Shown here: positions 1 to 20,821 of the stretch, piece by piece | How positions within the stretch are numbered: position 1 is the stretch's first letter | Layout of the letters: every line of letters starts with the position of its first letter | From: a virus | Strand: one strand, 5' to 3' | Length of the DNA: 24,400 bases | Virus record (IMG/VR): IMGVR_UViG_3300030102_003839 | Location: 1 to 24,400 of that record | Notes under the pieces: generated by a model | Database searches by the model: none | Seen by the model: only the letters and a program-made list of their open reading frames with translations | What the model was told of the DNA's origin: nothing | Program-made: the position numbers and the translations under genes

Positions 1-2041
1 TACCAAGAGTAATTTCATTAGAAGCTGTTGCTGAACTGGCTTCAGCGTCATAACCAATGCAAGTTACGTTAGCTCCAGTAGTAGTTGTGTTGCCTGCGTC
101 TCGACCAACAGCAGTGTTCTTTGCGCCTGTGCTGTTATAAAGCGCACCGCCTCCAACCGCTGTGCTGTTGCTGGTTGACAACGAAGCTGAAAGCGCATCA
201 TGCCCGATGGCAACATTATAATTAGCAAAAGCTCCGTTAATTCCATCTCCTGCTTGGTTACCGACACATACGTTAAAACTTGAGGCAGTAATATTTCTTC
301 CTGCAAGTCTTCCTAGCAGTACATTTGAAAGACCAGTAGTAAGGCTTTGTCCAGCAGCTTCACCCACACCATGGTTATAACTTCCTGTAGTTAAAGCACC
401 TAAAACTCCGTCACCAAGAGCAACGTTGTCAGAACCACTTAGAAGACTATCTAAGGTGTTATAGCCTATGGCTACGTTACTATCACCTGTAGTATTTGCG
501 TTCAGTGCGTTGGTTCCGATAGCAACATTGGTTTGACCACTTGTGTTTGCCCCTAAGGCTGAAACACCAACTGCAATGTTATCGTCGCCGGTAACAACAG
601 CATCTAACGCTTGAACACCAATAGCAATGTTTCTATTTGCTGTTTGTGCTTGTCTGAGGGCTCCGTTGCCTAAAGCGGTGTTATTACCACCTGAAGTATT
701 TGCCTTAAGTGCTTCGTATCCAACTGCTGTGTTGTTATTACTCGTACCATCGTCATTAGCAAGAGCATCAGTTCCTAATCCAAGTGTTGCTCCACTACTG
801 TTAGTAAGACCATCTGATAAATCATTAATTGCAGATGCTCCACCACCTCCTGCTGTTGAAAATTCAATATTATCATTTGTAGAGTTATAAGTTAGTACCT
901 GCCCATTAGTAGCACTAGATTGTAAACCTGGAATACGGAAGCTGGTAATATTCGTATCCCCTAAAGTAATTTCATTTGAAACAGTGGCAGAGCTAGCGTC
1001 AGCGTTAAAGCCAAGAACTAAATTGTTAGTTCCTGTTGTAATGTTGTGGCCTGCTTCATAGCCAATGCTTGTATTGTTATTTCCGGTAGTAACATTTCCC
1101 AGTGCTTTATGACCAACGGCTGTTACTTGTACGGCTGTTGTTAGACCTTCACATGCAGCTGTCCCTATAATTGTTGAATTAATTCCGCCTGTTGTTGCGC
1201 TAACCATTGCAGATGCGCCGACAATAGTAAAATTGTATGGCGTTGTCATATTCAAACCGGCTCTATAGCCGACTGCAACACAAAAACCAAGCGCGGTATT
1301 ACCCGTAAAATCTTCTAAAGCTTGTGCACCAAAAGCTGTTACCTGCTGGGGAGTTACCGTTGAGGCAGCAGCTCGATAACCAACAGCAGTATTATTAATT
1401 CCTATGGTGTTTGAATTTAGAGCTTGATAGCCAACTGCGGTATTGTAGTTTTGACTCCCATCATCATTAACTAATGCACCCGTACCTAAACCAATAGTTT
1501 TTCCAGAATCTAATGTAAGTGCGTCTGATAAATCATTAATTGCAGATGCACCGCCAGCAGCAGTAGACCATGTAGGAGCACTACCTGTTCCATTACTTGT
1601 TAAAACTTGTCCAGAGGTTCCATAATTTGCACCGGCAATGCCAAACGCACCTGTATCTGCAAATCTAAAACGTTCAGTACCGCTTGTACTAATTCCTAAT
1701 TGATTTGTAGCAGGGGAATAAAAACCATTAATATTACTTCCGATAGTTACTGCAGGTTTATCAACTAAACCAGAAGCAAAAGATCCTGATACTGCTGTAA
1801 GTATGCCGTTAGTAGTTGTTAAATTACCATCTTCAGTAGTAAAACTTCCTGTTGTTGTAACTACATCACCAGTAACTGTAATTGTTCCTTTAACATCTAG
1901 ATCACCAGTAATGACAACATCACCACTAAAGGTAGGCGCATTTACTAAACTTGAAACAGTAATTGTATGGTTAGCTTCTCCACCGCCTACACCTGTTGTG
2001 TACGTGATAAAGTCTGCACGCAGTTCTCCATACTGAGCCAT
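1..2041 (-). CDS. Tail fibre with YadA-like beta-roll repeats (partial, C-terminus off the left edge)
   Basis: I checked this frame codon by codon: it is open from ATG at 2041 to the window edge, giving 680 codons without a stop. An AGGA ribosome site lies about 9 bases before the start. The N-terminus has TFSGDVVITGDLDVKGTITV-type strands, as in phage fibre shafts. The body carries repeated units of the type NTAVGYQAL, NTAVGYRA, NTSIGYEAG and NVAIGTNAL, separated by TTG-N linkers. Such AVG/AIG-x-x-A units form left-handed beta-rolls in trimeric autotransporter adhesins such as YadA and occur in phage fibres. The block is present twice, each copy opening with GASAINDLSD and closing with ASSAT-SNEITLG. 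By inference it is a trimeric receptor-binding fibre, and a C-terminal chaperone or tip may lie outside the window. It follows the fibre-like gene at 2087-3934 on the same strand. Confidence 0.8.
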   Translation of the reverse strand, partial: MAQYGELRADFITYTTGVGGGEANHTITVSSLVNAPTFSGDVVITGDLDVKGTITVTGDVVTTTGSFTTEDGNLTTTNGILTAVSGSFASGLVDKPAVTIGSNINGFYSPATNQLGISTSGTERFRFADTGAFGIAGANYGTSGQVLTSNGTGSAPTWSTAAGGASAINDLSDALTLDSGKTIGLGTGALVNDDGSQNYNTAVGYQALNSNTIGINNTAVGYRAAASTVTPQQVTAFGAQALEDFTGNTALGFCVAVGYRAGLNMTTPYNFTIVGASAMVSATTGGINSTIIGTAACEGLTTAVQVTAVGHKALGNVTTGNNNTSIGYEAGHNITTGTNNLVLGFNADASSATVSNEITLGDTNITSFRIPGLQSSATNGQVLTYNSTNDNIEFSTAGGGGASAINDLSDGLTNSSGATLGLGTDALANDDGTSNNNTAVGYEALKANTSGGNNTALGNGALRQAQTANRNIAIGVQALDAVVTGDDNIAVGVSALGANTSGQTNVAIGTNALNANTTGDSNVAIGYNTLDSLLSGSDNVALGDGVLGALTTGSYNHGVGEAAGQSLTTGLSNVLLGRLAGRNITASSFNVCVGNQAGDGINGAFANYNVAIGHDALSASLSTSNSTAVGGGALYNSTGAKNTAVGRDAGNTTTTGANVTCIGYDAEASSATASNEITLG
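813..1549. repeat. Two copies of a fibre-gene module, marked by an exact 26-bp repeat
   Basis: The 26 bases at 813-838 recur exactly at 1524-1549, 711 bases (237 codons) apart and in the same reading frame. They encode the SAINDLSD segment that opens each beta-roll block. A second, diverged pair encodes the closing SNEITLG segment, near 1-45 and 958-1000. This is the trace of an internal duplication followed by change in repeat number: the C-terminal copy has more AVG/AIG units than the N-terminal one. Confidence 0.8.
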
Positions 2042-2086
2042 AATTTTTTCCTACAATACGTCTACTATTGATGGATCCATTCTACT

Positions 2087-3934
2087 TTAATTCCCCCAAA
2101 TTGTAAGAATAAAGCCATTGTCTCCAGATGTAAAAGACATGCCAGAAGTATTTTCATGTACAAAAGTCATAGTTGCATTTGTACCTCCGCTTGGTTTACT
2201 TACCATAATTCCATCAACTGGATTAGAGGTTGATCCATCCATTCGATCAAAAGCTAACCCAGGTTCTGCAACGCTTCCATATTTTGCAACAGTTTGACCG
2301 CTTATAAATATACCACTTGAATAGTAAGCAGGTTCAAAAACTTGTATGCCTCTAAACATAGCACTAGCTGTGCCAAGTGACATATCTAAATCACTAAATA
2401 AATAAGTATGTCCATAAATAGTATTAGCAGTTCCACTGATATAAACACCACCATTAATATATAAACCACTTACTGGTTCAAATGGAATTGTTCCAGCTAG
2501 TCCAATATCTCCTGCAGAAATAGTTATTAGACCACTATTGTTAAAGCTGATCTTTTCTGTTCCTGAAACTGCAAGACCAACATTTCCACTGTTAGTTCCA
2601 GAACCTGTAAAAAATACTCCTACACTTGCATCATTTATGTAACTAATTGAAGGAGCAGCTGCTGTTCCGCTGTTAAATAAAGCAGTACCAGTAACAGTTA
2701 AATCGTTATAAGTAAAGTCTCCACCACTAAATGAAACATTTCCGTTAACATTTAAGTCTCCACTAATAGTAGTATTACCAGACACCACAAGGCCACTGCC
2801 AAAGTAAACGTCATCTGTGACTGATAATCCACTGGTTATAGTGCCATCTCCTAGTACTGTTAAATCACCACTAATAATTTGATTTCCAGAAAAAGCAATA
2901 CTTGCTGCATTTAAAACATCGGTATTAATTTCACCGGCATTTATTTCGTAGCCGCTAATAAAAGCACCTGTGAAAGTATCTACATAAGCAGACACAGCAT
3001 TAACAACATCTCCAGTTATATTTGCTCCACTTAAGGTTCCAGTGACAAAAAGATCTTCTTGTACAAAACCTGACTTAATAGTAGTAAATAAACCTGTTAA
3101 GTTATAAACATAAAGACCACTTGTCCGAACTTGGTTTGATTCAACTTGTTCGGAATCTACATTAGCAAAAACACCTGAATAAACTTCAAGGGTATTTCCT
3201 GTAATCGTATTTCCTGAAATGTATTGAAAATAACCTGACTCTGTATTTAGAACATTAGCATCAATTGTATCACCTATAATAGAGGCGGCACCAAGAGCCC
3301 CAGTGACGGCAATAACATTTGCAATAATAGCTTCATTACTTATCAAATAACCTGTAATAGTGATATCACTAATATCTAAAGTTCCAAATGTAGAAACGTC
3401 TGCTGTTAAAACAGAGTAATTACCATTTAAATAATTACTATTTTGTCCTGTTGCTGTATCTGTATATGTTTGTTGAAAATTTCCAGTAATAAAATTACTT
3501 TGTCCACCGGTTGCTGTAATAAAAGTTCCTGTACCTTGAACTTCAATACTGTCAGTAATAATCGTACCGACATCGACAACATTACCGCTTATAGTGCCAT
3601 CAACTGATAAATCTGTTCCAACAACTACATCTCCACTAATACTAATATCATTAGTAAAAGTGGCAGCGCCACTTACGCTTAAAACATCAGAAAAAGAAAC
3701 AATACCACTGACGTTTAAGCCAGAGGAAATAATTACATTAGTAGCGATTAAAGGGTCAAAATTTAAAGAATTAATATAATATTGATCGAGATAATTTCGA
3801 AACTCCGTAAACGTTAGCTTCTTATTACGGAGTGCAGGGTCTACCTCAAAAACACTGACTAAAGTCAGTAAATCAGCATCATTAATTTCAGCCGCTGCAA
3901 TGGCTTCAAATTGTGTGATTTTTCTATTTGGCAC
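2087..3934 (-). CDS. Tail fibre or baseplate-like structural protein with SGD/VSG beta-repeats
   Basis: This 615-residue protein is rich in Ser, Gly, Thr, Val and Ile. Its N-terminal 50 residues (MPNRKITQFEAIAAAEIND onward) look like the attachment domain of cyanophage fibre proteins. From about residue 70 to 480 it is a run of short beta-strand units such as VSGAATF, ISGDVVV, SGDLTVLG and ISGDLNVNG, which suggest an extended triple-stranded beta shaft. The C-terminus (about 500-615) is not repetitive and ends in GFILTIWGN. The start is GTG at 3934. The codons just before it stay open and spell LSLGRWYESR after a TAA, so the true N-terminus is uncertain. Fibre or baseplate function is inferred from composition, repeats and position beside a second fibre gene. 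Confidence 0.7.
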   Translation of the reverse strand: MPNRKITQFEAIAAAEINDADLLTLVSVFEVDPALRNKKLTFTEFRNYLDQYYINSLNFDPLIATNVIISSGLNVSGIVSFSDVLSVSGAATFTNDISISGDVVVGTDLSVDGTISGNVVDVGTIITDSIEVQGTGTFITATGGQSNFITGNFQQTYTDTATGQNSNYLNGNYSVLTADVSTFGTLDISDITITGYLISNEAIIANVIAVTGALGAASIIGDTIDANVLNTESGYFQYISGNTITGNTLEVYSGVFANVDSEQVESNQVRTSGLYVYNLTGLFTTIKSGFVQEDLFVTGTLSGANITGDVVNAVSAYVDTFTGAFISGYEINAGEINTDVLNAASIAFSGNQIISGDLTVLGDGTITSGLSVTDDVYFGSGLVVSGNTTISGDLNVNGNVSFSGGDFTYNDLTVTGTALFNSGTAAAPSISYINDASVGVFFTGSGTNSGNVGLAVSGTEKISFNNSGLITISAGDIGLAGTIPFEPVSGLYINGGVYISGTANTIYGHTYLFSDLDMSLGTASAMFRGIQVFEPAYYSSGIFISGQTVAKYGSVAEPGLAFDRMDGSTSNPVDGIMVSKPSGGTNATMTFVHENTSGMSFTSGDNGFILTIWGN

Positions 3935-5473: not shown

Positions 5474-5837
5474 ACGCGCAAAACTTTTAGAGGCAGTTTG
5501 TGGCAAAGACTTAGAGGGCAATAGTGCTCGCTATGCAGACGCTACAGTCAAGTTAATCCTTAGCGATATGGGTAAATACTTTGTTAAGTTTTGGAATGAG
5601 GAGGGTCCAGGTTGTATGGTTTTTCAGCCAAACAACAGTGATCGCAGTATGTTTTGGCTTACTTTAGAAGAGTTGAACAATGCGTGTGAGCAAGAAACTG
5701 GCGAACTAGCAGAAACTTTTGGAACTATTTTAGAAGCTGCACAGAAGATTGATCCGCATGCAGGCGCTGGTTACATCATTAATGACCATGAAGGTATGCG
5801 CTATTTTGCTATTGACTACAACGAAGTGTCTGCATAA
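5466..5837 (+). CDS. Small acidic phage protein of unknown function
   Basis: This 123-residue protein is not recognised. It is acidic (many Glu and Asp) and soluble, with no membrane segment. It has a beta-strand-like part (GKYFVKFWNEEGPGCMVFQP) and a helix (LTLEELNNACEQETGELAETFGTILEAAQKI), and ends in strands around HEGMRYFAIDY. The start overlaps the previous gene by 8 bases, and the stop shares one base with the next ATG (TAATG at 5835-5839), so it is co-translated within the operon. Small size, acidity and coupling suggest an accessory factor, but no function can be assigned. Confidence 0.65.
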   Translation: MDRRAKLLEAVCGKDLEGNSARYADATVKLILSDMGKYFVKFWNEEGPGCMVFQPNNSDRSMFWLTLEELNNACEQETGELAETFGTILEAAQKIDPHAGAGYIINDHEGMRYFAIDYNEVSA

Positions 5838-6436
5838 TGAGCCTGCCTCAAAGCAAAGGCAACTATAAATCAGAAGGTTTTGAGTGGATTTCTAATCGTG
5901 ATCTAGTTGATTCCGCCCATTTCTTAATGGGTGGTATCGATTTAGATCCGGCTAGTAGTAAAGTTGCTAATGATTACGTTAATGCAGCACAGTACTTTAC
6001 TCCAACAGACGACGGTTTAAATCTCCAGAAATGGCATGGAAATGTCTATTTATTTCCACCGCATCTTTCTTATTTTTGGGATAAAAAAAACGATCGGTGG
6101 AAAGCTACTCGTGGCATGTCTCCTTCTTTGGTTTCAGGACATGCAATTTGGTGGAGAACTTTAAGAAGAAAATGGTTATCTGGTGAAATTGAACAAGCAA
6201 TTTATTTTACTAATTATATGGATATGATGATGTACAACCAAGATATTTTCGATTTTCCTGTCTGCATAATGAAGCAACGACCTTCTCTAGTAAGACGTTA
6301 TTTTGCAGATGACAAATTAGAAAAGAAGTGTACAGGATGTAGCTTTATTGTTTATCTTCAGCCTAAAGAAAATATAGGAGAAGCTACAGAAGCTTTTATT
6401 GATATTTACTCTGAAAAAGGAAGAATAATCGTCTAA
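5837..6436 (+). CDS. Phage Dam-like N6-adenine methyltransferase homologue with altered catalytic motif
   Basis: The 199-residue protein follows the pattern of the phage DNA N-6-adenine methyltransferase (Dam) family. It has the family signature GGIDLDPASSKVAN (residues 32-45), then YFTPTDDGL (53-61), a conserved Trp (W66), and a segment where active enzymes carry the catalytic D/N-P-P-Y/F. Here that segment reads L-F-P-P-H (72-76), so both the first residue and the aromatic one differ. In the family this motif contacts the flipped adenine, so this copy may be inactive, bind DNA without methylating it, or have changed substrate. Length is near the family norm and the frame is intact, so it is maintained as a protein. 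It starts on a TAATG overlap in the early-type operon, just before the dCTP deaminase. Confidence 0.65.
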   Translation: MSLPQSKGNYKSEGFEWISNRDLVDSAHFLMGGIDLDPASSKVANDYVNAAQYFTPTDDGLNLQKWHGNVYLFPPHLSYFWDKKNDRWKATRGMSPSLVSGHAIWWRTLRRKWLSGEIEQAIYFTNYMDMMMYNQDIFDFPVCIMKQRPSLVRRYFADDKLEKKCTGCSFIVYLQPKENIGEATEAFIDIYSEKGRIIV

Positions 6437-6459: not shown

Positions 6460-7044
6460 ATGTCTGTTCTAAGTGACTGGGAAATTCGTGCTTTAGCTCA
6501 AAAAGGTATGATTTCACCGTTTAAAGACTATCTGGTAAACAAAGAAAATGACACGCCGATTCTTAGCTACGGTTTATCCTCGTATGGCTACGACATTCGA
6601 CTTTCTCCAAATCAGTGTTTGCTATTTGGTGGCGTTCAGCACGGTATGTGTGATGCTAAAAATTTTGACCCTGAAATTTTAAAAGAAACTGAACTTCATG
6701 AAGATGAGCAAGGGAAATATTTTATTATCCCTCCTTACGGCTATTGTCTTGGTGTTGCTGTTGAGCATTTGACTTTACCTCGAAACGTTACCGTAGTTGC
6801 CCTGGGTAAAAGTACATATGCCAGAGCCGGAATTATGGCAAACATTACTCCAGCTGAAGCTGGTTGGGAAGGCCACTTGACTCTGGAGATTAGTAACTGT
6901 ACTCCTTTATTTAATAAAATTTACGCTAATGAAGGTATCTGTCAACTTCTGTTTTATCGAGGGAATGAATGTAAAGTTGATTATAAAACTCGTAAAGGCA
7001 AATACCAAGGACAACCTTATGAAGTTGTACTATCTAAAGTCTAG
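6460..7044 (+). CDS. dcd: dCTP deaminase
   Basis: The 194-residue product has the full dCTP deaminase pattern. GLSSYGYDIRL is at residues 38-48, the phosphate-binding GKSTYARAGI at 116-125, and AGWEGHLTLE at 134-143 carries the catalytic Glu (E143, matching E138 of the E. coli enzyme). QLLFYRG follows, and the C-terminal KGKYQGQ closes over nucleotide. It converts dCTP to dUTP and ammonia, the first step towards dTTP. A phage would use this to adjust nucleotide supply to its own genome composition. A bifunctional deaminase-dUTPase cannot be excluded. The start is preceded by a purine-rich site (GAAAGAAG). It closes the plus-strand operon, and its TAG is shared with the convergent gene through CTAG at 7041-7044. 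Confidence 0.93.
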   Translation: MSVLSDWEIRALAQKGMISPFKDYLVNKENDTPILSYGLSSYGYDIRLSPNQCLLFGGVQHGMCDAKNFDPEILKETELHEDEQGKYFIIPPYGYCLGVAVEHLTLPRNVTVVALGKSTYARAGIMANITPAEAGWEGHLTLEISNCTPLFNKIYANEGICQLLFYRGNECKVDYKTRKGKYQGQPYEVVLSKV

Positions 7045-7430: not shown

Positions 7431-7796
7431 ATGATGGGCTTTCTAGATGAATTCATGGGCAACCATGATCAACTTAAACAGCGAATGGCGACTATGGATA
7501 CATTTGGTCAGCCAATAGATAATGAAGCAAATGATGTACCTTTGTACGATGAATACAATACTGGTCTTGCATTAACTCAGCAAGATATGTCTGATCGTGT
7601 TAATTTAAGTATTGATCCTCGTGCACAACCCCGATGCGGACTGACAGGTCTAATTCCATCAGCAGAAATGGGAATTCAACAGGGAGCACAACCGCAACCT
7701 CGTCAGCTCGTAGTGGACATGGGTCAACTGTCTCCGGAGGAACAGGAACTAGCGATGGTTCAACAAAGGAAACTGAAAGCTGGTTTGAACCGGTAG
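7431..7796 (+). CDS. Small acidic Gln-rich protein of unknown function
   Basis: The predicted product is 121 residues from ATG at 7431; a second ATG follows immediately. The frame extends upstream to a GTG at 7398, but that would run through the palindrome, so I prefer the internal ATG. The protein begins MMGFLDEFMGNHDQLKQRM and has many Asp and Gln. Its C-terminal part (MGQLSPEEQELAMVQQRKLKAGL) looks like a short amphipathic helix. It is not recognised and no ribosome site is obvious. Its last 163 bases are overlapped in another frame by the DUF3310 gene, so the two may be translationally linked. Confidence 0.6.
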   Translation: MMGFLDEFMGNHDQLKQRMATMDTFGQPIDNEANDVPLYDEYNTGLALTQQDMSDRVNLSIDPRAQPRCGLTGLIPSAEMGIQQGAQPQPRQLVVDMGQLSPEEQELAMVQQRKLKAGLNR

Positions 7797-8062
7797 AAGA
7801 AGAAATTTCTGATTGTCCAGGGGGTATATGCCCAGTCCCCTGGGCAAAGAAAGAAGTAGATAATGTTAACCACCCTTCGCATTACACCGAGGGTGGGATT
7901 GAGTGTATTGAAGCCATCGAAGCGCAATTAACGCCAGAAGAATATAAAGGGTACCTAAAAGGTAACGTTGCCAAGTATATTTGGAGAGAAAAATATAAAG
8001 GGGGTATTGAGTCACTTAAAAAAGCTCAGTGGTATTTAACTAAGTTAATCGATTTAAAATAA
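7634..8062 (+). CDS. DUF3310 family protein
   Basis: The C-terminal half (residues 74-142) matches the DUF3310 pattern: VNHPSHYTEGGIECIEAIEA at 78-97, then GYLKGNVAKYIWREKYKGG and KKAQWYLTKLI. The domain is common in phages and has been linked to T7 gp1.7-type nucleotide kinase proteins, but the activity here is not established. The first 70 residues are Ser/Thr/Gly-rich and mostly coincide with the preceding gene in another frame. ATG at 7634 is the only usual start codon I can find in frame. The real start may therefore be a long overlap, an unusual codon, or a ribosomal shift from the upstream gene. The domain itself is secure; the N-terminus is not. Confidence 0.75.
   Translation: MRTDRSNSISRNGNSTGSTTATSSARSGHGSTVSGGTGTSDGSTKETESWFEPVEEEISDCPGGICPVPWAKKEVDNVNHPSHYTEGGIECIEAIEAQLTPEEYKGYLKGNVAKYIWREKYKGGIESLKKAQWYLTKLIDLK
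7817..7845 (+). other. Strong alternative RNA hairpins inside the DUF3310 gene
   Basis: CCAGGGG at 7817-7823 can pair with CCCCTGG at 7837-7843. Alternatively GCCCAG at 7830-7835 pairs with CTGGGC at 7840-7845 around a TCCC loop. The two stems exclude each other, and both are unusually GC-rich for this AT-rich genome. They lie about 20 bases after the stop of the upstream gene and just before the conserved DUF3310 domain. A role in translational coupling or frameshifting is possible but unproven. Confidence 0.4.
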
Positions 8063-8361: not shown

Positions 8362-8679
8362 CTAATCTCGCTGACGCCAATCATCAGTTTTTTCTTGACT
8401 GAACCACTCAACGATATCGTCGGCACTCTTGAATTCTCTACGGTGATTGCTTGGATCTGGATCCCCCAGGTCCATTGCATTCATGAAGCTATCTAATCCT
8501 TCATTTGGCATATCTGGATTAGAAGCTGTTCGACGTGCTTTGCGTAGCATTTCACCAGCAGTGGTATTAGCTTTTGCTAATTTTTCTGCCCAAATCATGT
8601 CAGACAGCTCCACCTCTGCATTTTTAGCGATGCGCCCACAAATAAATTCAAGGCGTAGACGGTATTTAGTTGACAGCAT
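8362..8679 (-). CDS. Small protein of unknown function
   Basis: This 105-residue protein is not recognised. It is largely helical by eye: LRLEFICGRIAKNAEVELSD is followed by MIWAEKLAKANTTAGEMLRK and then a basic RRTASNPD segment. The C-terminal third is acidic (MNAMDLGDPDPSNHRR and DDIVEWFSQEKTDDW). The start at 8679 has a good ribosome site (AGGAGATA just before ATG) and follows the NblA-like gene by 14 bases, so the two are probably co-transcribed and co-translated. If the NblA assignment holds, this is a candidate partner, but there is no direct evidence. Confidence 0.65.
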   Translation of the reverse strand: MLSTKYRLRLEFICGRIAKNAEVELSDMIWAEKLAKANTTAGEMLRKARRTASNPDMPNEGLDSFMNAMDLGDPDPSNHRREFKSADDIVEWFSQEKTDDWRQRD

Positions 8680-8693
8680 TATCTCCTACTCAA

Positions 8694-8993
8694 TCAAAAA
8701 GGCATTGCATCATTTTCGTCGTCTTCGCCAAAAAGATCTTCATGGCTCATCATCGACAAAGCAAGCTGTGCCAATTCAATATCAGTTGGAATATCAAATT
8801 CAAGTTCGATTTGTTCAGACTGAAGCATGTCTTTGATTGCTTGGATTTCAAGCAATCGTTGGTGGTAAAGGTTTAAAAGAGCTGCTTCTAATTGTTCCCA
8901 TGTCATCTCCTTTGCTGCAATCTCTGCTTTACGCATGGCGAGCTGGAGATGTAGCGGTAAATCAAATTCCTTTGTAGCTTCTAAATCACCCAT
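8694..8993 (-). CDS. NblA-like phycobilisome degradation adaptor (candidate)
   Basis: Residues 9-61 align without gaps to the NblA pattern as I remember it from Synechococcus elongatus. There is an N-terminal F-x-L-x-(4)-Q block (FDLPLHLQL), then an (M/I)-(S/T)-x-E-(D/Q)-L turn (MTWEQL, 30-35), a hydrophobic helix ending LYHQRLL (42-48), and a final K-x-M-(L/I) element (IKDML). Identity is only about one in five, but hydrophobic and charged positions match throughout. NblA is a small helical dimer that tags phycobilisomes for Clp proteolysis, and copies are known from cyanophages. Here a 38-residue acidic tail (DLFGEDDENDAMPF at the end) extends beyond the usual length. It lies between the lysozyme and an unknown gene. 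An unrelated helical protein remains possible. Confidence 0.55.
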   Translation of the reverse strand: MGDLEATKEFDLPLHLQLAMRKAEIAAKEMTWEQLEAALLNLYHQRLLEIQAIKDMLQSEQIELEFDIPTDIELAQLALSMMSHEDLFGEDDENDAMPF

Positions 8994-12964: not shown

Positions 12965-13231
12965 ATGCAAGCACTTTCTAAGAACTGGGCTCCTGTCCAC
13001 AAGGCTGAGCGAATCCTTGAGATTGATCGCAAAGATTTGCACCGTATGCGTGACAACGGTACGTTTAAGCTCGGCAGACATTATGGTGCAGGACCCCTGA
13101 CCCGGTCAAGGGATACATACTACTGGAATATTCCTTTAGTCCAAGACCGTTTGTCAGAGTTAGAAAACCAAAAGGTCAAGCAGTTAAAAGCGCCTTCCCA
13201 GACTGCTTTCGATAACCATCTGACTGCTTAA
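12965..13231 (+). CDS. Small excisionase-like DNA-binding protein
   Basis: This 88-residue protein has a short helix-turn-helix at about residues 12-32 (HKAERILEIDRKDLHRMRDN). It is followed by GRHYGAG and the basic SRDTYYWNIPLVQDRL, a layout like that of the gene at 4564-5019 and of small excisionases. By inference it binds DNA as a directionality factor or repressor. It is the only plus-strand gene in the 8.4-24.4 kb late block, has its own promoter, and its 3' end overlaps the convergent integrase-like gene by 56 bases. Together they look like a small regulatory or mobile cassette. Opposed transcription through the overlap could make the two genes interfere with each other. Confidence 0.6.
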   Translation: MQALSKNWAPVHKAERILEIDRKDLHRMRDNGTFKLGRHYGAGPLTRSRDTYYWNIPLVQDRLSELENQKVKQLKAPSQTAFDNHLTA

Positions 13232-13610
13232 GGGGGGTGTAATAAACTTTACGAACTTTATGCGCCAGTAATAAACCTTTGATGGTAAGGCTAACGTTGC
13301 CAATACCACAGGTTTTTTCAAGGCTGGAACAGAGGAATGACCAGCGGCTCTTCAAGTTGAAGGGCTGCTTTTCTTTAAGTTGAAACAAGAAAACCCACTG
13401 AGGATGTAGTGGACGAATGGAACGTTTTTTGGATTTAATGGTAATGCTGTTATCATCATTCCAGGTAAAACCTTTTAATTCAGCAGGAGTTTTGCCATAA
13501 GTAGCAACCATTCCAAGAAGCCATCCAACATCTTCCATGTCGGACTGCGTTTTCAGAGAAAAGATTTCATCAACGATACGTGGGTCCGTTGGGAGATGCA
13601 TGTGCAACAT
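13176..13610 (-). CDS. Degenerate tyrosine-recombinase (integrase)-like protein
   Basis: This 144-residue protein resembles part of the catalytic domain of cyanobacterial tyrosine recombinases. WLLGMVATYG-KTPAEL (30-45) corresponds to the ATYG-L-R-P-x-E region with the first catalytic Arg. A beta-hairpin, SITIKSKKRSIRPLHPQW (55-72), follows, and AHKVR (116-120) may be the H-x-x-R box. Key differences are that the catalytic Arg position is Thr41, no LGH-like box or convincing nucleophilic Tyr is seen, and the length is less than half of a full integrase. It is therefore probably not an active recombinase. It could be a relic, or a protein kept for DNA binding or for directing host sites. It has its own promoter and a palindromic leader, and its 3' end overlaps the convergent gene. 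Confidence 0.5.
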   Translation of the reverse strand: MLHMHLPTDPRIVDEIFSLKTQSDMEDVGWLLGMVATYGKTPAELKGFTWNDDNSITIKSKKRSIRPLHPQWVFLFQLKEKQPFNLKSRWSFLCSSLEKTCGIGNVSLTIKGLLLAHKVRKVYYTPLKQSDGYRKQSGKALLTA

Positions 13611-19660: not shown

Positions 19661-20821
19661 TCAGATCGTATCGTCGTCGGAAACGAAGCTGAAAGCAGTG
19701 GTGATGAAGTCTTTGTTTAAAACTTCGAAACCAGCATAAAGTTGCCAGATAAGAATGATGAAACGTGAGAAGTCATCATTGTTATTGATCAGTACCTGAG
19801 CATTGGGGCCACCGATACCAACACCAACTGCCTGAGGACCAAAGAAATAACCTTGGGCAACTTCTTCAGAAGCGTAAGAACTGTTATCGAAAGTAGCGGT
19901 AACGTTCTTGGTCGGGAAGTTGGTTGACTCGAAGAACTTAACGCCTTCAAATTGAACGCCAGTAGGCATCACAGGCTCACCAGCCAGGAAGTAGCCCTGA
20001 CCAGCTTGGGGACCCATGTAGAAGCTGGTGTTGTTAGGCATCATGGGGTTAGCCATGTACATGCCTTGACCAGGATTGCCGCTGTAACGGGCGATCTCAC
20101 GGAAGTCATCGTCACGACGCAGATGCATCATGAAAACAGGATCGCAAATACAGCGATACAGACCATCAGCGAAGGTCGGCACGTTGCGCTTACGCAGATC
20201 CTTAACAACCTCTAAGAGGTCAGTACGGACAGAGAATTGCTGAACTTGTGCAGCATATTCTGCACTGGTATAGGTGATACGACCTTGGGAATCCTTAGCT
20301 TTGTCACCAGCGAAGTAATAACCTCCTTGAGTGGATGAAGCTTGGCCTTGAGCCTCAGCTTTGGCAAGTTCGTCAATGAAAACACGATCGCGCCAGCGGC
20401 GGTAGTCGTCGAGCAGAGTTAAAGAACCGATGCTCTGGTGGAACATGTTCAGATTGCCGGTGTCCAGTAACAGGCGCTGGGCAGTGACCAGAGTCTCGCG
20501 TGCAATCTTGAAGGTTGAAGGCTGGGTCGGATCACCTGGGTCCGCAGGGCCTGTGTACTCTTTCAACACAACAAGCACCTTCTCCTTGGTGATGTTGCGG
20601 CTGTTAGCAGTACCAATAGTCTGGTCAGACACGCGCTCGCGGCTGTCCTTAGTACCAGGGGTTCCCCAAAACTTGTAGCGATCAAGCTGCACGGTTTGGC
20701 CGGGCTGAGAAGTGAAGTCGTGGACGACCACGGGCTCCACAGCCATTTCGCAAATATATGCGGGGTGCGGACGGTAAAGCTCCGCGCCTAAAATTTTAGG
20801 AAAGTCGTTGTCTAAAAACAC
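19661..20821 (-). CDS. Probable major capsid protein
   Basis: This 386-residue protein is assigned by position (portal, scaffold-like gene, then this) and by character: length and mixed alpha/beta composition fit a capsid subunit of the HK97 fold. After MFLDNDFPKILGAELYRPHP comes a region suited to an N-terminal arm. It has a helix-rich part near 105-160, including RETLVTAQRLLL, and a long central helical stretch (SAEYAAQVQQFSVRTDLLEV, near 187-206). The start is GTG at 20821 with a strong GGAGGA site nine bases before it, and a 108-base leader. GC-rich codon use suggests heavy translation. I recognise no specific sequence family, so the name rests on context. Confidence 0.7.
   Translation of the reverse strand: MFLDNDFPKILGAELYRPHPAYICEMAVEPVVVHDFTSQPGQTVQLDRYKFWGTPGTKDSRERVSDQTIGTANSRNITKEKVLVVLKEYTGPADPGDPTQPSTFKIARETLVTAQRLLLDTGNLNMFHQSIGSLTLLDDYRRWRDRVFIDELAKAEAQGQASSTQGGYYFAGDKAKDSQGRITYTSAEYAAQVQQFSVRTDLLEVVKDLRKRNVPTFADGLYRCICDPVFMMHLRRDDDFREIARYSGNPGQGMYMANPMMPNNTSFYMGPQAGQGYFLAGEPVMPTGVQFEGVKFFESTNFPTKNVTATFDNSSYASEEVAQGYFFGPQAVGVGIGGPNAQVLINNNDDFSRFIILIWQLYAGFEVLNKDFITTAFSFVSDDDTI

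Follow-up and report, generated by a model that had tools for sequence, protein, structure and literature searches.

An NblA-like protein with a conserved acidic C-terminal module in the S-EIV1 lineage of cyanophages

The open reading frame P0001 belongs to a phage protein family that, as judged by profile comparisons, is homologous to NblA, and it probably encodes a proteolysis adaptor of the NblA type that belongs to the S-EIV1-like lineage of cyanophages. P0001 lies in IMG/VR record IMGVR_UViG_3300030102_003839 (positions 1 to 24,400; this 24.4 kb stretch of viral DNA is hereafter called the window), which is a fragment of an S-EIV1-like cyanophage. Phage NblA is already established, marine phages included; what appears to be new here is a conserved extra module, an unusual length and the apparent status of the gene as a core gene. 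A widespread cyanophage lineage carries an extended NblA-like gene that annotation has overlooked, and surveys of NblA-bearing phages based on Pfam's default threshold would fail to count most members of the S-EIV1-type family. The extension also offers a clean, testable add-on to a minimal adaptor.

Known NblA proteins link phycobiliproteins to ClpC and form dimers that assemble as four-helix bundles (PMC7966870; PMC4103541), and the N-terminal region of NblA has been reported to bind ClpC (PMC4103541). Phage NblAs expressed in Synechocystis and S. elongatus lead to the loss of phycobilins (PMC9602691). As cited in PMC12892361, Nadel et al. 2025 described NblA in many oceanic cyanophages, and credited phage NblA with up to 5% less oceanic photosynthetic light capture. 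NblA is also carried by Ma-LMM01, MaMV-DC, PaV-LD, the marine cyanopodoviruses and S-TIM5/S-SCSM1, presumably for dismantling of the antenna (PMC9602691; Nadel et al. 2019, 2025). For the S-EIV1 group, a tabulation of photosynthesis genes from 2017 has entries for hli and ptoX, with nblA entered for other groups only (PMC5332604). PMC5332604, PMC9382816, PMC9239245 and PMC9229316 name both S-EIV1 and nblA, and the passages located in them do not connect the two.

The coordinates originally given for the reading frame proved exact, and its strand, which had been left unstated, is minus; the plus-strand frame across the same positions is interrupted by stops. Both frame and length are kept in all 82 loci examined, which encode 49 distinct complete proteins. 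P0001 is under strong purifying selection, with dN far below dS in the core as well as in the extension: locus L003, the closest relative of use for this comparison, gives dN 0.005 and dS 1.1, the corresponding values for the extension alone being 0.02 and 0.55, and comparisons with other relatives give a dN of 0.15-0.21 and a dS that is high or saturated. The gene is separated by 25 bases from the lysozyme gene behind which it lies, and shares its strand with the head protein and other structural genes in the window (Table 1).

Table 1. Positions in the window of P0001, its parts and the neighbouring genes referred to in the text
Feature	Position	Strand	Basis
P0001, extended NblA-like gene, 99 aa	8694..8993	minus	ORF, start conserved in the family; purifying selection
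NblA core, residues 7-59 (predicted helices 14-28, 32-59)	8817..8975	minus	hhalign, 53 gapless columns; AF2 models; 1OJH match
N-terminal motif FDLPLHLQL, residues 10-18, counterpart of NblA ELSLEQQF (the reported ClpC-binding region)	8940..8966	minus	alignments; PMC4103541 for ClpC binding
Conserved part of extension, residues 60-80 (EQIELEFDIPTDIELAQLALS), predicted helix 71-87	8754..8816	minus	invariant residues; model
Acidic tail at the C-terminus (residues 81-99), last residues MPF	8697..8753	minus	C-termini of 49 distinct relatives; predicted disordered 89-96, pLDDT < 50
Lysozyme/endolysin, directly upstream of P0001	9019..9687	minus	PF00959, 4.7e-21; phrog_7
Conserved phage gene downstream of P0001, phrog_507	8362..8679	minus	phrog_507, 6e-51
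Major head protein (context)	19661..20821	minus	phrog_1357, 4.1e-16

Taken alone, P0001 is ambiguous as an NblA; it is the family as a whole for which comparisons indicate homology to NblA, through the members above the Pfam cut-off, the reciprocal search and the profile and hhalign matches. With the curated Pfam NblA model (PF04485, cut-off 25 bits), P0001 scores 14.5 bits over residues 17-58 (E 0.049 over 24,736 models), below the cut-off, and many family members score low or nil. Relatives in L060, L066 and L071, which are about 60-68% identical, pass it with 25.6, 25.6 and 25.1 bits, respectively. The search against the NblA family that accompanied the original prediction as a check thus fell short for P0001 itself and succeeded for these three relatives and for a picocyanobacterial relative (26.5 bits) described below. 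Among PDB sequences the sole match of a 19-row family profile was the NblA of 1OJH (E 0.0066, 50 residues gapless), and hhalign of the family against 21 NblA sequences gave a probability of 95.8% over 53 gapless columns, or 96.3% for the core alone. We regard the reciprocal genome search as the strongest sequence-level test of the homology. When the 19-row profile (A1) was run on 292 cyanobacterial genomes, in which NblA places had been located independently with PF04485, its top nine places, with E-values from 4.7e-5 to 0.003, all fell on PF04485 genes, and the match after these came at E 0.04.

The gapless NblA-like stretch noticed at the outset is likewise borne out. Ungapped, P0001 has 11/50 identities with Nostoc NblA and 10/49 with S. 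elongatus NblA, and when it is compared without gaps with 22 NblA sequences, its best scores average 58.8, about 12 s.d. higher than the mean of 400 shuffles (23.8 +/- 2.9, maximum 38.9). Single-sequence searches were silent: phmmer against the PDB gave no match, tblastn with Nostoc NblA against the phage records gave none, and BLASTP of P0001 against Nostoc NblA found nothing in the right register. An LPL(H/E/Q)(L/M)Q(L/F)-type motif is present in every family member in the alignment. With cyanobacterial NblA (PF04485; Anabaena PCC 7120, 1OJH) the family shares the gapless core of about 50 residues, two predicted helices in the same places and this N-terminal LxLxxQF-type motif. On the other hand, cyanobacterial NblA is about 60 aa long against 93-104 aa here, P0001 is about 20% identical to it, and the phage family adds a conserved acidic C-terminal module and replaces the lysine at the K53 position.

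Leu51 and Lys53 of Anabaena NblA are said, in work ascribed to Bienert et al. 2006, to matter for phycobiliprotein binding. Their equivalents in P0001 are Met56, which keeps the hydrophobic character, and Gln58, a position taken by A or E in other members; nearby Lys54 is invariant. In terms of the C-terminal YxxLLK motif tied to phycobiliprotein binding, the hydrophobic position is therefore retained and the lysine has become Q, A or E, with Lys54 close by.

A helical fold is also predicted. From a family alignment of the sequences of the window and the retrieved loci, AlphaFold2 places helices at 14-28 and 32-59 in the full-length protein, followed by a third helix at 71-87 and an acidic tail that is disordered; since this model is only moderate (mean pLDDT 70, pTM 0.44), the third helix is tentative. 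A core-only model contains the same two helices with a mean pLDDT of 83, the means of ten-residue blocks being about 85-94 over the helices. By the 1OJH alignment these correspond, with an offset of five, to NblA residues 9-23 and 27-54, so that the monomer is predicted to be a helix-loop-helix with its helices at the NblA positions. Foldseek and VIA-align, queried with the full and core models, did not return NblA among their matches, two-helix models being poor queries. Profile, reciprocal and family-level evidence, together with the predicted helices, supports the original reading of P0001 as a divergent NblA-like protein.

The acidic C-terminal extension, too, holds as first described, and is family-wide, being found at 82/82 loci. 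The 38 residues of P0001 after position 61 include 12 D/E and no K/R, and the extension (residues 60-99) consists of a conserved FDIPTDIELAQLA segment and the acidic tail. E60, D67, P69, E73, L74 and L77 are invariant over 38 alignment rows, and in invariant positions residues 60-78 equal parts of the core; purifying selection acts on the extension, which is conserved. Members are 93-104 aa long, and all 49 distinct complete proteins have the acidic tail, which follows the pattern of a run of D/E, then nearly always P, then F or a hydrophobic residue plus FG. Most tails end in P-F or PFFG, with PF in 18 of the 49 distinct proteins and FG in 23. The extension is absent from the cyanobacterial NblA matched here, the picocyanobacterial 102-aa protein being the one exception.

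The tail was also considered as a docking tip of the SSB type, i.e. an acidic stretch ending exactly in P-F. Strict mimicry is unlikely, since only 18/49 tails end in PF and 23 in FG, while the SSBs of the lineage records (L352-L362) end in P-F in 11/11 cases. Most lineage SSBs have an SSB-type acidic tip (DEPF, DDAPF, KEPF); the SSB of S-EIV1 itself (L351:29657-30466) ends in DEPF, to which the NblA-like tail is similar but often PFFG.

The one real relative of P0001 retrieved by tblastn from 50,697 phage records was AHV82245.1 of S-EIV1 (KJ410740), a phage whose host is a Synechococcus. This protein, annotated as a hypothetical protein, is placed after the S-EIV1 lysozyme as P0001 is in the window, and it is the orthologue of P0001: the two are 61% identical over the matched 72 residues and have the same extension, the tail of AHV82245.1 (a 104-aa protein ending in APF) being somewhat longer. 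A prophage of S. elongatus UTEX 3055 has been described as the nearest to S-EIV1 (PMC9239245). In IMG/VR, 468 stretches encode relatives of P0001. When the lineage was sampled independently through its major head protein, which gave 21 records, the extended NblA gene was found in all nine records of at least 45 kb. Seven of the 21 are without it, six of 15-23 kb and one of 44.7 kb; in the latter some 2 kb separate the capsid gene from the end of the contig, and in the window P0001 follows the capsid gene at a distance of about 11 kb downstream. The gene seems to behave as a core gene of the S-EIV1 lineage.

The gene sits right behind the lysozyme gene and near structural genes in S-EIV1, the window and the other loci whose ORFs were read. 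The replication genes of S-EIV1 (primase, polymerase, SSB) lie on the strand opposite to the NblA-like gene, which places the latter in what looks like a late lysis/structural block, as judged from gene positions. The nblA of Ma-LMM01, on the other hand, is an early gene in a nucleotide-metabolism region (PMC4103541), whereas the S-EIV1-type gene belongs to the apparent late block and occurs in every long record sampled from its lineage. The NblA of S-SCSM1 differs in another respect, being 54 aa long and without the extension. This protein (ORF237, L348:152-316) has no PF04485 match even at E 10; Pfam-based counts would thus overlook published phage NblAs, and by profile the case of the S-EIV1-type family for NblA is at least equal. 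Relatives of the S-SCSM1 NblA occur in 23 phage records (tblastn), nearly all labelled hypothetical.

Within the order searched, one (G600) of 299 picocyanobacterial genomes also encodes an extended NblA-like protein of 102 aa, at L364:5405-5710 on the minus strand. It passes the Pfam NblA cut-off with 26.5 bits and matches the phage family profile at 7.6e-24; by passing both models it bridges NblA and the phage family. The protein (L363/L364) resembles the phage family in its extension pattern and acidic tail (EEDPFLS), and differs in its identity to that family, 41%, and in its location on a cellular contig. This 8.2 kb contig carries trigger factor, SNase and rhomboid genes; no match to the two neighbouring proteins compared was found among the phage records, and no relatives of the copy itself were found in viral contigs. 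The copy may belong to the host or be what is left of a phage. Next to it are a 152-aa protein with the acidic end EEQDLDQEETF and a PD-(D/E)XK/Cas4-like nuclease.

Given the conserved N-terminal motif and core, NblA-like action is the best guess for P0001, and we infer, as the original prediction did, that it would direct the phycobilisome to Clp proteases. Most likely, the core with its two helices (residues 9-59) forms dimers as NblA does; it would contact phycobiliproteins and pass these on to ClpC-ClpP of the host, and the antenna of the infected cell would be dismantled, freeing amino acids and reducing the intake of light. The C-terminal module, which combines a short, conserved predicted helix with the acidic tail, is an addition specific to this lineage; it probably provides a further contact or adjusts the choice of partner or the turnover. 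Against the adaptor reading are the score of P0001 under the Pfam cut-off and the low or missing scores of many members, the loss of the K53-equivalent lysine and the late-block position, which is unlike that of Ma-LMM01 nblA.

The loss of the Anabaena K53 equivalent, together with the added module, leaves room for a changed partner choice and even for an inhibitory role. P0001 might be an NblA homologue with altered output, in which the fold and dimer surface are kept and, owing to the extension and the altered C-terminal contact residues, the protein either pairs with host NblA and prevents degradation of the antenna, so that light harvest is preserved by this anti-adaptor, or directs ClpC to other substrates. 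We hold this to be rather unlikely: while the lost lysine, whose importance is a matter of report, the conserved acidic module missing from canonical NblA and the restriction of the only solved-structure match (1OJH) to the core all fit it, the ELxLxxQF-like N-terminal motif is retained, and the phage NblAs tested so far promote phycobilin loss (PMC9602691). In a related but unlikely version, the acidic module would be a second docking element of a two-headed adaptor, which recruits a non-phycobilisome partner to ClpC or inhibits host NblA; if so, the S-EIV1 lineage would control host antenna turnover late in infection, unlike any known NblA.

It is quite improbable that P0001 is instead a late structural or assembly protein, such as an assembly chaperone, derived from or merely resembling NblA. 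Its place directly behind the lysozyme gene near structural genes, and its presence in all long records like that of core structural genes, would suit such a role, and 11 members weakly match phrog_2992, a tail assembly chaperone (best E 0.0045). However, the family matches NblA better (2.2e-5, with some members above the cut-off), the reciprocal search has NblA in its best places, and the phrog_2992 match extends over the acidic region too; identity as this chaperone was rejected, the match being weak and weaker than that to NblA. Chance convergence of an unrelated amphipathic two-helix protein, which would suit the sub-threshold Pfam score of P0001 alone and the BLASTP comparison with Nostoc NblA, is very improbable in view of the gapless score about 12 s.d. 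over shuffles, the 9/9 best places at NblA genes across 292 genomes, the members above the Pfam cut-off and the bridging host protein.

Besides the extended family, 53 viral contigs in IMG/VR (L285-L337) carry a canonical short NblA with up to 86% identity to cyanobacterial NblA; several of these contigs are 78-97 kb long, and some have a weak C-terminal match to the window head protein. Several other genes in the window were also noted. On the plus strand, opposite to the late genes, 7634-8062 encodes a DUF3310 protein (PF11753, 2.7e-20) that PHROGs labels 'nucleotide kinase'; also on the plus strand, 6460-7044 encodes a dCTP deaminase-like protein (2.3e-25) and 5837-6436 a protein matching phage DNA methyltransferases (phrog_111, 4e-12). 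On the minus strand, a 144-aa ORF at 13176-13610, without a Pfam match, has a pattern that by eye is reminiscent of a tyrosine recombinase core, and positions 1-3934 encode two long repeat-rich adhesin/fibre-like proteins that match tail spike and virion structural entries of PHROGs; the first protein extends past the end of the record.
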